Source: Sphaerochaetaceae bacterium
Lineage (GTDB): Bacteria > Spirochaetota > Spirochaetia > Sphaerochaetales > Sphaerochaetaceae
Assembly (NCBI GenBank): GCA_024698005.1
Contig: JAILRW010000042.1
Span: forward strand, 1 to 62,001
Length of the DNA: 62,001 bases
Direction: 5' to 3'
The stretch's first letter is position 1; each line of letters starts with the position of its first letter. The notes below the pieces were generated by a model. That model was not told where the DNA came from. It saw only the letters and a program-made list of their open reading frames with translations, and ran no database searches. Positions 56,899 to 62,001 of the stretch are shown piece by piece. Both the position numbers and the translations under genes were made by a program.

Positions 56899-58140
56899 AT
56901 GAAAAGCTGGATCACATACATTGCAGCCATTTCTTTGGGTGTATTGACTGCTATTTTTTTTAAAGATAACACAGTAGCAGCATCAATCCTTATGGGTGTT
57001 TCCAGCTATTCAATGAAGTTTGGCGCATTCCTATTTCTTCCTTTAATTTTATTTTCTCTACCACCTGCAGTGGCATCACTCAGGAAAAGCAAAAGTTTAA
57101 ATAGAGTCGTCTTTTCATCAATACTTTTCTCTATTGTTACTGCTCTTATTCTTCCTCTCGTATCTGCATTTGCTATCAGATATACAGGACTACAATTTCC
57201 TGCAAGCTCAACAGCAGGAGCAGAAGGCTATTTCACCGCAATACTCCCAGCGACCTTTAATGAAGCAGGAGATTCATTATTTTCTGGAAACATCTTCTAT
57301 TCACTTTCAAAGATTTCTGATTTCTTGCTTCCTGCAATTCTTTTTTCCTTGATTTTCGGCTTTGCACTAAAACCAAATGACGATAGCATCAAACCCGCGT
57401 ACAACGTAATGAACTCCTTTTCTACTGTAATGTACCGAATTGCAGGAGTTTATACCTTCTTATCCTTTCTCTTGATCTATCCTGTCTCAGCTCTCTTCTT
57501 TTTACAGTTGATTAACGAAAAGACTCTGCTACTCTACCCTGCCTTACCAATCTTCTATGTTGCAGTTACTGCTATCATTACCCTGATCATTCTGCCAATA
57601 CTTGTCTCTATCCTATCTCTTTTTCGCATCAATCCTTGGCTTGCAATAATAAAGAGCATCGCTCCTCTCTGTTCTGCGTTCTTCACTGGAAGCTATGTTT
57701 TTTCAGCACCAATGGTCGAGTCTATACTCACTAGAAAACTAAAAACAGATAGAAAGATTGCCTCAACGGCAGTTCCAATTTTCAGCATTATAGGTAGGGC
57801 TGGTTCTGCAACTATTGCTGCGATGACAACTATGAGTGTCATTGCCTTTGCAACAGGGGCGATGCCTACAGTTTATGAAACGATTCTTTTCTCTTTGCTT
57901 TGCTCAGCTGCAAGTTTTGCATCATCAATAGCGGGAGGAGGCTTCGAAGCTATATTAATAATCGGTATATTATTCCAGATTGCCGATATCAACCTATTTG
58001 GTGCAGAGATGACTGTTGTTGGTGTTATGCCTATGATATCTGCACTTTCTGCTCTGATAGATGTAGAAATTGGCCTGCTTGGCGCTTTATTATGTGATAA
58101 AAGAAAAAAGGTATATACTATACCTAAGGAAAATATTTGA
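56899..58140 (+). CDS. Dicarboxylate/amino acid:cation symporter (DAACS family)
   Basis: A 413-residue membrane carrier of the GltP/DctA type with about eight helices and two re-entrant loops. The HP1-like SAFFTGSYVFSAP stretch and the GRAGSATIAAMTTMSV segment correspond to the transport core, although the NMDGT motif of typical members is changed, so substrate specificity may differ from glutamate or C4-dicarboxylates. The start appears leaderless. The stop overlaps the next ATG (ATGA). Confidence 0.78.
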   Translation: MKSWITYIAAISLGVLTAIFFKDNTVAASILMGVSSYSMKFGAFLFLPLILFSLPPAVASLRKSKSLNRVVFSSILFSIVTALILPLVSAFAIRYTGLQFPASSTAGAEGYFTAILPATFNEAGDSLFSGNIFYSLSKISDFLLPAILFSLIFGFALKPNDDSIKPAYNVMNSFSTVMYRIAGVYTFLSFLLIYPVSALFFLQLINEKTLLLYPALPIFYVAVTAIITLIILPILVSILSLFRINPWLAIIKSIAPLCSAFFTGSYVFSAPMVESILTRKLKTDRKIASTAVPIFSIIGRAGSATIAAMTTMSVIAFATGAMPTVYETILFSLLCSAASFASSIAGGGFEAILIIGILFQIADINLFGAEMTVVGVMPMISALSALIDVEIGLLGALLCDKRKKVYTIPKENI

Positions 58141-58892
58141 TGAACAAAGGACTCTTTACCAATCTAATTTCTATCCTCCAGGTTCTATCCTCCCTTCTTA
58201 TGTCCTGGCTCTTGGGCTATACTCTTATGTCCAGTATAGATAACGATCTTTCAAACCATCTAGAGATATTGACCGGATTCTTTCCTCTGTTCCTTTTATT
58301 GATCCTTACTGTTTTCCCAATCTTCATCTTGCGTCTTAAACATAGAGTTGCGGCAGCAGAAGGCCCTCTCCTTCCTCTCTATCTCTTCTTTATTACAATG
58401 AGTTCCGCTTCCTTTTTACCAAGAATTGAAGACTATATTGGAATAACAATTTTCTCTTTCGTTTTTGTTCAGAGACTTTCTTTCTTTTTCCTGCTATCAA
58501 CAGAGATTGTCCTGTTCTTTGCTTCGCTAGTTAATTATGACAACGGAAAAAATCTCAAGCATAGCAACATGTACACAACTCTTGGTCTCTTGACTACTTT
58601 CGTCTTGTCCGCAACGATACCGCTAAATAGCAATTATAATGTTGCAAATAGCCACAGCACAGGACTATTGTTCATTGCAATTGCTATCATGCTTCTTGCC
58701 CTCCTCACCTATTTTGCAAACTTCTTGAAGGATAAGGAGAGCTATGCTTTAAAACGATTTATAACCTTTGTATTCTTAAGTATCGGTCATATTGTAATCT
58801 TGACCGGCATATTCCCATTCTCTATTTTTGGGTTAATCCTCTATACTGTCGGCATTTTGATGCTCTGCTTTGTCAGCCCTAATGGATATTAA
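58140..58892 (+). CDS. Membrane protein of unknown function
   Basis: A 250-residue protein with about eight hydrophobic segments and few charged residues between them. I recognise no family. It is translationally coupled to the symporter gene through an ATGA overlap, so an accessory role in transport is possible. Its stop codon shares the palindrome TTAA with the stop of the convergent LysR gene. Confidence 0.65.
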   Translation: MNKGLFTNLISILQVLSSLLMSWLLGYTLMSSIDNDLSNHLEILTGFFPLFLLLILTVFPIFILRLKHRVAAAEGPLLPLYLFFITMSSASFLPRIEDYIGITIFSFVFVQRLSFFFLLSTEIVLFFASLVNYDNGKNLKHSNMYTTLGLLTTFVLSATIPLNSNYNVANSHSTGLLFIAIAIMLLALLTYFANFLKDKESYALKRFITFVFLSIGHIVILTGIFPFSIFGLILYTVGILMLCFVSPNGY

Positions 58893-59815
58893 TTCCTAAT
58901 AGGCTTAAACGCATTATGCATTTCTTCGAGGAAGTTCTGTTTATATCTTGAAGAAAGGCTATCCTCATTATGATATATGTACAGAACATCGCTTGGGATG
59001 TACTTCTGCATAGATATCAGACGAACTGTAGGATTCAAGGTTGAGGAATAGTTTCTAAGGAACATATCCGAATAAAGAGTTAGGGCCATCTCCTTTTGAG
59101 ATAGAGCAAACGCTGTCTGTGCATTATCAGTTTCGAGAATAATATTTGGAGTAAGTTTTCTAGAGCGGACAATATTGTCAAAAAGATCCCTACTTCTGTT
59201 TCCCGGAGTGAGCAGGATAAAAGGACAATCGATTACATCCTCGATCTTGAAATCAAGGAGCATCTCCTTTGTTTTCTTTTTCCCATAGCGAACTTCCAGA
59301 ATATGCTCTGGCACTACCAAAAAGAAGTTCTCTTTAAAGAGTGGCTCCTTGACAACTCCTTCAAAGGAAACATCATCAGCTGTGATCCAGAAATCTATCT
59401 CTCCCTTTAAAAGCCTGTCTTTCAGAACAAGTGCTCTCTCTTCATATATATTAATATGTACAAGCGGATGCTTTTCTGCGTATTCAGGTAGTACGTGGGG
59501 AAGAATGAACTGTCCTCTTGTGAATGACAGTCCGATTCTCAATTCGCCTCTTTCTTCTTTTCTGATTGCATTGAGCTTGTCATTCAAAGTTGCATTTACT
59601 TCATCAAAACCTAAAACAGCATCATAAAGACATCTTCCTGCGTCAGTCAGAGAAAGTCGAGGAGTTCTATTGAAAAGAGTAACACCCAACTCCTCTTCTA
59701 GATTCTTGATATGAGAGCTAAGTGCCTGCTGAGAAATATACAGTTTATTTGCAGCATGAGTGATGTTGAGTTCAGAGGCAACAGTCTTGAAATAGCGCAA
59801 AACAAGGAAGTTCAT
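58889..59815 (-). CDS. LysR-family transcriptional regulator
   Basis: A 308-residue LTTR: winged helix at 1-60 (YFKTVASELNITHAANKL, ISQQALSSHIKNLEEELG, LFNRT) and a periplasmic-binding-like effector domain from about 85. The ATG at 59815 is the normal LTTR start (MNFLVLRYFK); six extra upstream codons are open. It is divergent from the TAXI-TRAP genes, with a dyad in the 120-base gap, and so probably regulates that transporter in response to its substrate. Confidence 0.9.
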   Translation of the reverse strand: MNFLVLRYFKTVASELNITHAANKLYISQQALSSHIKNLEEELGVTLFNRTPRLSLTDAGRCLYDAVLGFDEVNATLNDKLNAIRKEERGELRIGLSFTRGQFILPHVLPEYAEKHPLVHINIYEERALVLKDRLLKGEIDFWITADDVSFEGVVKEPLFKENFFLVVPEHILEVRYGKKKTKEMLLDFKIEDVIDCPFILLTPGNRSRDLFDNIVRSRKLTPNIILETDNAQTAFALSQKEMALTLYSDMFLRNYSSTLNPTVRLISMQKYIPSDVLYIYHNEDSLSSRYKQNFLEEMHNAFKPIRN

Positions 59816-59827
59816 AGTGAAATTCAA

Positions 59828-59847
59828 CCACAACTAAAAGATTGTGG
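59828..59847. promoter_or_regulatory. Candidate LysR-type operator
   Basis: CCACAA (59828-59833) and TTGTGG (59842-59847), eight bases apart, lie 13 bases before the LysR start. LTTRs usually bind such interrupted dyads between divergent genes. Confidence 0.4.
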
Positions 59848-59935
59848 CAAGTACTCAAAACTATTTGGAAAATTCTGTTTTTATATTTTTTTTCATTTTG
59901 CTAGCATGGTTCATGTAATCAAGGAGGATTTCCTT

Positions 59936-60946
59936 ATGAAGAAAGTTTTAATGATTTTAATGGTTTTCGCTCTCGCAGTATCTTTTGTTGCAGCAAACGG
60001 TTCCAAGGAGGCTGCAGCAGACACCTCCAGAAGCGTAGCTAATGTAGATACCAATACTGTAGCTGTTGGTGCTGTCGTAATTGTACGTGATGATGTTCCT
60101 ACTGATGAAGTTTATGCAATCGTAAAGTCCATCTTCGACAACAAGGCTGATATCGCTGGCCAGCATGCTAAGGGTAACGAACTTGACCTCGCATTTGCTT
60201 CCTCAGTAACTGCTGTTCCTTATCACCCAGGTGCTGCAAAGTACTTCGCTGAGAAGGGCATCAATGTTGCTTCTGTAAAGTCTGGTGCTGGTAACGGTAA
60301 GGCTTCCTCCCTGAACTTCGGTACAGGTGGTGATACAGGTACTTATTACGGTTTCGGTTCTGTTCTCGCAGGTTATGTTACAAAGAACACACCTTACTCA
60401 GTAACAGCTGTTACTTCTGGTGGTTCCAAGGCTAACATCGAAGACCTCACAGCTAATGACGTACAGCTTGGCTTCGTACAGTCCGACGTAATGAGCTATG
60501 CATACAATGGTGAGAGACTCTTCACTTCTCCAATCAAGGGCTTCAGCGTTGTCGCAGCTCTCTACATGGAGCAGGTACAGATCGTAACTACCAAGAGTGA
60601 CATCGTAAGTGGTGCAGACCTCAAGGGCAGATCAGTATCCATCGGTGCTATCGGTTCTGGTGTATACTTCAACGCAATCGACGTTCTCGACGCTTATGGC
60701 CTCACAGAGAAGGATGTAAAGGCTGTATACCAGAGCTTCGGCGATTCTGCTGATAGCCTCAAGGATGGCAAGATCGACGCTGCATTCATCGTAGCTGGTG
60801 CTCCTACCACTGCTATCACAGACCTTGCTACTGCTAAGACTGTTTACCTCGTAAACATCGATGACGCTCACGCAGATAAGCTCATTCAGGCATCCCCATT
60901 CTACAGCAAGTACACAATTCCTGCTGGAACATACGGAAGCAAGTAA
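59936..60946 (+). CDS. Circularly permuted TAXI-family TRAP solute-binding protein
   Basis: A 336-residue exported binding protein. The signal peptide (MKKVLMILMV... ending VAA/NGSKE) is Sphaerochaeta/Treponema-like. After it comes NTVAVGAVVIVRDDVPTDEV with the VPYHPGAAKYFAEKGI segment (about 38-110), which in ordinary TAXI proteins forms the C-terminus. A linker (about 114-124) leads to the usual N-terminal start NFGTGGDTGTYYGFGS (about 127), then TSGGSKANIEDL, QLGFVQSDVMSYAYNG, DLKGRSVSIGAIGSG, and the chain stops right after PFYSKYTIPAGTYGSK, where a normal protein would continue. So the order of the two lobes' segments is permuted. AAGGAGGA precedes the ATG. Codon use is that of a highly expressed gene. 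It overlaps the permease gene by one base. Confidence 0.88.
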   Translation: MKKVLMILMVFALAVSFVAANGSKEAAADTSRSVANVDTNTVAVGAVVIVRDDVPTDEVYAIVKSIFDNKADIAGQHAKGNELDLAFASSVTAVPYHPGAAKYFAEKGINVASVKSGAGNGKASSLNFGTGGDTGTYYGFGSVLAGYVTKNTPYSVTAVTSGGSKANIEDLTANDVQLGFVQSDVMSYAYNGERLFTSPIKGFSVVAALYMEQVQIVTTKSDIVSGADLKGRSVSIGAIGSGVYFNAIDVLDAYGLTEKDVKAVYQSFGDSADSLKDGKIDAAFIVAGAPTTAITDLATAKTVYLVNIDDAHADKLIQASPFYSKYTIPAGTYGSK

Positions 60947-62001
60947 TGGCTGATAATATCAAGAAAAACTCTGCCGATAATTCGGCAGAGAAAATCCTGA
61001 GAAAATTCGATAAGGAGTCCGCTACCAGAATTTGGAGCGGACTTCCTAAAATTGTGGTAAATGCAATAACTGCTTTCTTTTCCTGTTACTGTATCTGGTC
61101 CACCCTATTCTCTACAGCAGATATCCCAGTTCGCCTCACAGCATTCCTGGGCTTCTCTGTAATTATGGGTTTCTTGACCTATCCAGCATCTAAGAAGCAC
61201 GTAAAAGAGAACTACATTCCTTGGTATGACATCATCATCATGATTGTTGGTTCTTTCTGTTTCTTCTATTATTGCTTTAACTACAATCATCTGGTAATGA
61301 CAATTACATCTGCAAGTAAGATCAATCCATTTAGTGAATCTGCAATCCCTAATGCGATTTTCTACCTTGTAATTGGCATTATTGCAATCCTTGTAATGGC
61401 AGAACTCTGCAGAAGATGTGTAGGCCTTCCAATTCTTTGTGTTGTTGGCTTGTTGCTTATTTACACATTCATGAGCGGACAGAACCTTCCTCGTGTTATC
61501 TACACAATGTACTACGGAACAAGCGGTCTCATGTCCACTCCTCTTCAGGTATGTGCCAAGTTCATTGCGATTTTCATTATATTCGGTGCCTTCCTTGAGA
61601 GAACAGGCGTTGCAAACTTCTTTATTGCACTTGCAAACTCTCTCGTTGGTTGGGCTTCCGGTGGTCCTGCAAAGGTAGCAGTTATCTCATCTGCTCTGTG
61701 CGGTATGGTTTCCGGCTCAAGTGTCGGTAACACTGTAACCACAGGTTCCGTCACCATTCCGATGATGAAGGAAACTGGGTACAAGGGTGAGTTCGCAGGA
61801 GCAGTAGAAGCTGCCGCTTCAACAGGTGGACAGATCATGCCTCCTATCATGGGTGCAGCAGCTTTCCTTATGGCTGACTTTATCGGTGTTCCATATTCAG
61901 ATGTTATTTCAAGAGCTATTCTGCCAGCAGTATTGTATTTCTTTGGTATATTTATCTGCGTACATCTGGAAGCGAAGAGACTTAATTTAAAGGGCATTCC
62001 T
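60946..62001 (+). CDS. TRAP transporter fused permease (DctQM, 4TM/12TM), partial
   Basis: The gene starts in TAATG, overlapping the binding-protein stop, and is open to the window end (352 codons seen). A hydrophilic N-terminus is followed by hydrophobic helices of the small-subunit-like domain and then the large subunit, with the typical VSGSSVGNTVTTGSVTIPMM segment and AAASTGGQIMPPIMGAAAF motif. Such fused permeases pair with TAXI proteins and import organic acids or amino acids, driven by an ion gradient. The C-terminal half lies outside the window. Confidence 0.9.
   Translation, partial: MADNIKKNSADNSAEKILRKFDKESATRIWSGLPKIVVNAITAFFSCYCIWSTLFSTADIPVRLTAFLGFSVIMGFLTYPASKKHVKENYIPWYDIIIMIVGSFCFFYYCFNYNHLVMTITSASKINPFSESAIPNAIFYLVIGIIAILVMAELCRRCVGLPILCVVGLLLIYTFMSGQNLPRVIYTMYYGTSGLMSTPLQVCAKFIAIFIIFGAFLERTGVANFFIALANSLVGWASGGPAKVAVISSALCGMVSGSSVGNTVTTGSVTIPMMKETGYKGEFAGAVEAAASTGGQIMPPIMGAAAFLMADFIGVPYSDVISRAILPAVLYFFGIFICVHLEAKRLNLKGIP

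Follow-up and report, generated by a model that had tools for sequence, protein, structure and literature searches.

The gene at positions 59936 to 60946 of the window (the whole stretch of 62,001 nucleotides analysed here) raises the question of whether a TAXI solute-binding protein of a TRAP transporter can occur in nature with its sequence blocks in circularly permuted order and, if so, whether such a protein still works and by what route it arose. The features of the locus are as follows, in window positions.

58889..59833, reverse strand: divergent LysR-type regulator gene (gene context)
59921..59927, forward strand: ribosome-binding site AAGGAGG, 5' of the ATG (sequence)
59936..60946, forward strand: circularly permuted TAXI solute-binding protein gene, 336 amino acids, stop included (open reading frame, profile and alignment matches)
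59936..59995, forward strand: signal peptide, residues 1-20, cleavage after ...SFVAA as judged by eye
59996..60049, forward strand: N-terminal tether, residues 21-38 (structure model)
60050..60088, forward strand: hinge strand 2, residues 39-51, equivalent to VcGluP 255-267 and now the first folded element (alignment and model)
60089..60262, forward strand: remainder of block B, residues 52-109, the C-terminal part of domain 1 (profile, alignment and model)
60263..60310, forward strand: junction linker, residues 110-125, NVASVKSGAGNGKASS, where the old C-terminus meets the old mature N-terminus
60311..60541, forward strand: block A, residues 126-202, which form the N-terminal part of domain 1 and include pocket residues Y137, Y138, S164 and Q182
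60542..60589, forward strand: hinge strand 1, residues 203-218, with E212; the sole remaining covalent crossing (alignment and model)
60590..60943, forward strand: domain 2, residues 219-336, with the new C-terminus IPAGTYGSK
60944..60948, forward strand: TAATG stop/start overlap (one base) with the permease gene (sequence)
60946..62001, forward strand: fused TRAP permease (TIGR02123 profile match), truncated by the contig end

The TAATG overlap suggests that translation of the binding protein gene may be coupled to that of the permease. The divergent LysR-type protein, whose gene also adjoins the permuted gene in the four other spirochaete contexts read, is the probable regulator of the system. 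Further upstream lie a sodium:dicarboxylate symporter (SDF) gene (56899-58140) and, from an overlapping TTG start just after it, a gene for a 251-residue protein without a Pfam match (58137-58892); both also adjoin the permuted system in genome G006.

Block order and the junction

The product matched PF16868 in two stretches (hmmscan, E 9.6e-71), with residues 128-334 corresponding to profile positions 1-215 of 289, and likewise TIGR02122 (TRAP_TAXI) in two stretches (E 4.1e-76), both scores, 239 and 256 bits, exceeding the curated cut-offs of 27 and 84, respectively. A whole-genome search placed PF16868 positions 211-289 at 60017-60259, upstream of positions 1-216 at 60317-60940, within a single open frame. 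The sequences of seven TAXI structures, searched with phmmer, aligned in two stretches of reversed order in every alignment printed; in 9oz4, for example, chain residues 6-221 correspond to query 126-334 and chain residues 226-298 to query 38-109. Residues 126-334 thus represent the first three quarters of the family (block A) and residues 38-109 the last quarter (block B). When canonical relatives were concatenated to themselves, their local alignment scores against the protein rose from 640-729 to 865-956, a gain of about 225-240, and no such gain was obtained for permuted relatives in the same test, which excludes chance. Given the two swapped stretches and the gain on self-concatenated targets, the circular permutation is real, and the product of 59936-60946 is confirmed, at the level of sequence, as a circularly permuted TAXI solute-binding protein. 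The protein lacks the colinear order of the TAXI profile, and we accordingly class it as a permuted derivative of the TAXI family, not as an ordinary member.

The swapped order, with the last block directly after the signal peptide, had been proposed from the DNA letters alone, and was borne out by the profiles, the structure sequences and the concatenation test. Either of two outcomes would have refuted it, namely a colinear profile alignment or a normal C-terminal block overlooked nearby, and neither was encountered. Within 1.5 kb of the permuted genes at 59 loci, no second copy of block A or B was found other than two weak, chance-level matches, by which a hidden second C-terminal block and flanking remnants of deleted A or B were ruled out.

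Permuted proteins end in ...YTIPAGTY, to which the spirochaete copies add GSK; the chain in the window stops at IPAGTYGSK, in agreement with the new termini inferred earlier at the IPAGTY site. Canonical proteins run on past this site, for instance with GTDEDCQTVAV. At the other seam, the permuted proteins share a conserved motif, EKG-x-V-A-x-V-K-(E/D/S)-G-A-G-x-G followed by L-x-F-G-T-G-G. The earlier idea that a linker joins the old termini was upheld, but its description as a Gly/Ser/Lys linker was not, the junction being this conserved motif. Since the canonical Bacillota sister L155 ends in ...EKGIEVASVK, the junction can be read as the old C-terminus in full, followed by about six additional residues and then by the old mature N-terminus, a composition that an in-frame tandem fusion would leave behind. 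It is no more than speculation that the six or so extra residues may descend from a lipobox region.

Among the Bacillota proteins, a lipobox was recognised by regular expression in 45 of the 48 permuted and in 35 of the 38 canonical ones, and lipidation was consequently rejected as a distinction between the two forms; in four of ten spirochaete copies, a lipobox takes the place of an ordinary signal-peptide cleavage site. The tether from the lipidated Cys to the fold has a median length of 21 residues in permuted against about eight in canonical Bacillota copies (p about 1e-6 versus close sisters, in a post hoc comparison uncorrected for relatedness), which would fit a shift of the anchor away from domain 1 towards the side of the hinge. 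In the window protein, tether residues 27-33, the first ones modelled, are predicted by AlphaFold to be disordered. One further permuted gene (L135, 5453-6538) has its frame broken in block A, with an unrelated C-terminus after ITDLE, probably through a frameshift or an assembly end; its near relative L128 is intact.

Fold, pocket and relation to known binding proteins

In VcGluP, residues 116-131 and 255-267 form the hinge strands, domain 1 comprises residues 29-115 and 268-328, and domain 2 comprises residues 132-254 (PMC11574862). With index 1 of the aligned chain taken as residue 29, the cut falls between VcGluP 249 and 255, the last aligned residue G334 corresponding to 249 and T39 to 255. 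The sequence-only reading, which had placed the cut in a surface loop, needs refinement, as this is no ordinary loop: the alignment, the VcGluP hinges and the model all locate it at the boundary of domain 2 with the second inter-domain hinge strand.

In the AlphaFold model of the permuted protein (pLDDT 92.6, pTM 0.89), two strands span residues 39-51 and 203-218, an exact match to VcGluP hinge strands 255-267 and 116-131. The model of the canonical sister L155 (pLDDT 92.4) contains the same elements in uncut order, except for one short helix at the cut, and the element order of the permuted model is a cyclic shift of it. Foldseek, which aligns in sequence order, matched the permuted model to 8u79 over 225 columns (TM 0.63, rmsd 2.1) and a canonical control over 296 columns (TM 0.91, rmsd 2.1); the best matches were TAXI structures, with block A of the predicted model at rmsd 2.1-2.3 to 8u79, 1us4, 9ibo and 8s4j. 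The earlier suggestion that the fold could be kept while the termini move is in line with this predicted, intact two-domain TAXI fold with both hinge strands in place, and retention of the fold despite the permutation rests on prediction only. By inference, each domain would become one continuous stretch and a single covalent crossing would replace two, while hinge strand 2, now N-terminal and with one end free, would still pack on hinge strand 1. The tether, carrying a lipid anchor in most Bacillota copies, would leave from the edge of the hinge and domain 2 rather than from domain 1.

All the ligand contacts listed for VcGluP map to block A. The window protein keeps Y45, Y46, S75, Q93, E125, G156 and G203 (VcGluP numbering), while S40, V44, H123, D157, Y200 and M201 are changed, equally so in the canonical sisters; at every contact position, the main residue is identical between permuted and canonical sisters. 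Because the contact residues match in this way, the permutation has probably left the solute unchanged. Retention of the residues that bind the amino and carboxyl groups points to an alpha-amino acid or a similar compound, an inference made from sequence alone. In nearly all pairs, the dN/dS ratios of blocks A and B lay well below 1 (individual estimates are approximate, with saturation of some of the dS values), and by this measure both blocks are under purifying selection. A fused TRAP permease lies downstream of 54 of the 59 permuted ORFs, most of the others being cut by contig ends. The permuted protein most likely still works, presumably catching its solute and handing it over to the adjoining fused permease, though binding, transport and single-hinge behaviour are all inferred.

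With canonical TAXI proteins (VcGluP, 8S4J/9IBO; TtGluBP, 1US4/8U79), the window protein shares its sequence family, predicted two-domain fold, key pocket residues and adjoining fused permease; it departs from them in having its blocks circularly permuted and its old termini joined, and also at the six changed pocket positions given above, where canonical sisters differ to the same extent. BP0403-type elongated TAXI proteins and TAXI-GltS fusions (PMC12344293) are also of unusual architecture, but through added domains or fusions, and the main text of that paper does not mention permutation. No published permuted TAXI or TRAP binding protein was found in the openly licensed literature, which agrees with the earlier statement that none was known and is not proof of novelty.

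A permuted binding protein of another family has been described, namely TpMglB-2 (Tp0684) of Treponema pallidum, a “Cluster Bc” circularly permuted ABC-type glucose-binding protein (PMC4990184). Its type occurs in spirochaetes and Gram-positive, largely gut, bacteria and is usually tethered, and tethering was proposed by its authors as a cause of the permutation (PMC4990184). Both are natural circular permutations of a solute-binding protein in spirochaetes and Gram-positive bacteria, but TpMglB-2 is of the unrelated ABC type (Type I/Cluster B), its permuted segments are 13% identical and a fourth hinge crossing was added, whereas the permuted TAXI proteins are about 53-71% identical to their canonical sisters and have, by inference, lost one of two crossings. 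Membership of Cluster Bc, defined by the Type I/Cluster B ABC fold and sequence, is not met by the window protein; its sequence matches were TAXI chains, one weak nitrate-binding match and lactate dehydrogenase noise, and its top Foldseek matches were TAXI proteins followed by sulfonate- and taurine-type binding proteins. The permuted TAXI protein is an independent case in a family other than that of TpMglB-2; it has close canonical relatives that bracket the change well, its number of hinge crossings would have fallen instead of risen, and it adds a second, unrelated permuted family to spirochaetes and Gram-positive gut bacteria.

Distribution and descent of the permuted form

The permuted order is present in 10 genomes of the window's own family (four genera, 83-100% identical), with a fragment in an eleventh, and in about 48 Bacillota species, mostly Oscillospiraceae (56-79% identical), including the named, non-MAG genome of Oscillibacter sp. 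1-3. A scan of genome contigs returned 363 relatives, of which 80 were kept and 57 were permuted, nine of these from spirochaete MAGs (mostly rumen) and 48 from Bacillota. Among 400 genomes from the family of Oscillibacter sp. 1-3, a continuous permuted match was obtained in 20 and canonical-form matches only in about 130 more. A plasmid search gave no sign of the permuted order among the ten best matches listed, which cover the query in two pieces, and a wider spirochaete scan gave no permuted copy in its sample beyond the window's own. A phylum-wide PF16868 search of Bacillota yielded, among the matches listed, strong canonical ones only and is uninformative on the frequency of the permuted form.

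Annotation pipelines label the permuted proteins as plain TAXI (TIGR02122 matched all 53 permuted members scanned), and the permutation is thereby hidden in public genomes. Permuted and canonical forms, which share 53-71% identity and their pocket residues and have related permeases, constitute natural pairs that could be used to probe the need for both hinge strands in Venus-flytrap closure, the bearing of tether position on permease docking and the fixation of permutations. A divergent permuted TAXI protein, 53% identical, with a VKEGAGTG linker and an IPAGTY end, was also seen in genome G543 (L207/L218), with no permease found downstream in the stretch examined; the same genome has a canonical relative.

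An outgroup-rooted tree of the binding proteins shows the main permuted clade as a derived group nested in successive canonical Bacillota clades; in a binding protein tree, one side of a branch (support 81) is made up of this group. The canonical L147 was nested in the main permuted clade in the binding protein trees, probably as a long-branch effect, its permease grouping with canonical ones. The spirochaete copies nest inside the Oscillospiraceae permuted clade, beside rumen Oscillospiraceae, and horizontal transfer from Bacillota to rumen spirochaetes is therefore the simplest reading, albeit an inferred one. The permeases of the main group are separated from those of canonical systems at 100% SH-aLRT if one row, an assembly chimera, is set aside. 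The possibility raised at the outset, that permuted proteins form one clade with their own permeases, accordingly holds for this main group and fails for a second, small lineage of three genomes (L130, L132 and L133), which lies outside it in both trees and has its own binding protein and permease ancestry.

It is conceivable, and can be put forward only tentatively, that the main Oscillospiraceae clade and the ancestor of L130, L132 and L133 each underwent the permutation independently, at one and the same hinge site. Trees of A and B together group the three with canonical L020, L022 and L023 (and L226 and L077) at 100, and their permeases group with canonical L226, L020 and L022. A single clade for all permuted rows was rejected (delta lnL 83, p-AU 1.5e-5), although the groups tested were named after the tree had been seen. 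In the L130 lineage, most of the discriminating columns are sister-like in A as well as in B (28 of 36 and 10 of 16, respectively), and no recombination breakpoints were visible inside its A or B. Against a double origin, the linker VASVKEGAGTG is found in L130 and in many members of the main clade, and a near-identical linker is unlikely to arise twice unless the same lipobox-like remnant was kept in both copies.

The shared linker would be accounted for if the junction had a single origin and reached the L130 lineage through recombination, after which local canonical sequence took the place of the flanking blocks; blocks A and B can be replaced from canonical donors, but such donors cannot remove the linker. 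T39, too, occurs in the two permuted lineages alike and is rare among canonical relatives (10%). This route remains possible though rather doubtful, as blocks that are sister-like nearly end to end require either two near-complete replacements or a transfer limited to the linker.

If the TAXI family was indeed permuted twice at the boundary of domain 2 and hinge strand 2, a proposition that we regard as plausible and short of probable, the second hinge strand would be a site at which the chain has broken repeatedly and on which selection can act. A single covalent hinge may then be enough for TRAP binding proteins to work, and the cutting of the hinge, or the moving of the membrane tether to it, may benefit tethered transporters of gut bacteria, for which TpMglB-2 would be the parallel case in an unrelated family.

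Route to the permuted gene

The proposed history, inferred throughout, begins with a canonical gene in Oscillospirales that would have been tandemly duplicated and fused; the leading block A and the trailing block B would then have been lost, and the permuted gene moved horizontally into rumen spirochaetes. An origin by duplication and fusion is not shown, as no A-B-A-B or B-A-B intermediate was found in the examined loci, where the B-A order occurs in 59 different ORFs and the A-B order in 89.

The same absence of a duplicated intermediate counts in favour of separately encoded halves having been joined by fission and fusion, a model established for other proteins (PMC3320104). We consider this unlikely for the TAXI gene, in that neither a free-standing B nor a clean A half was present in the examined loci, the junction is of the kind that an in-frame tandem fusion gives, and one relative carries two canonical TAXI genes in tandem. 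This pair (L141, 2869-4950), two genes about 40 bases apart in a rumen Synergistaceae MAG, would be the kind of arrangement from which a permutation by duplication could start.

An ancestral permuted state, with the canonical sisters as reversions, would explain the common linker by one event, but the canonical clades branch successively below the main clade in the rooted tree and several exact reversions would be needed, which makes it very improbable. That the gene itself is an artefact of assembly or binning can be dismissed as virtually impossible, for although the window is a MAG contig and a mis-joined TRAP permease occurs elsewhere in the same MAG, the order and the junction recur in about 58 other, independent genomes, Oscillibacter sp. 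1-3 among them. The reading we retain, with high though not complete confidence, is that of a natural circular permutant of a TAXI solute-binding protein of a TRAP transporter, most likely working, with the fold, hinge and origin by tandem duplication proposed above.

Two minor observations concern the permeases. The last 106 or so nucleotides of the permease in the window (61896-62001) have no match to G006. On contig C28 of genome G000 (L005, 4554-7533), there is an apparent mis-join at a conserved permease motif, STGGQIMPPIMGAAAF: the beginning of the permease resembles its counterpart in a distant TAXI system (99% to L184 over 870 nt) and the end its counterpart in the permuted system, and the apparently chimeric gene is followed by peptidase and phosphoglycerate mutase genes, which flank the permuted system in G006.
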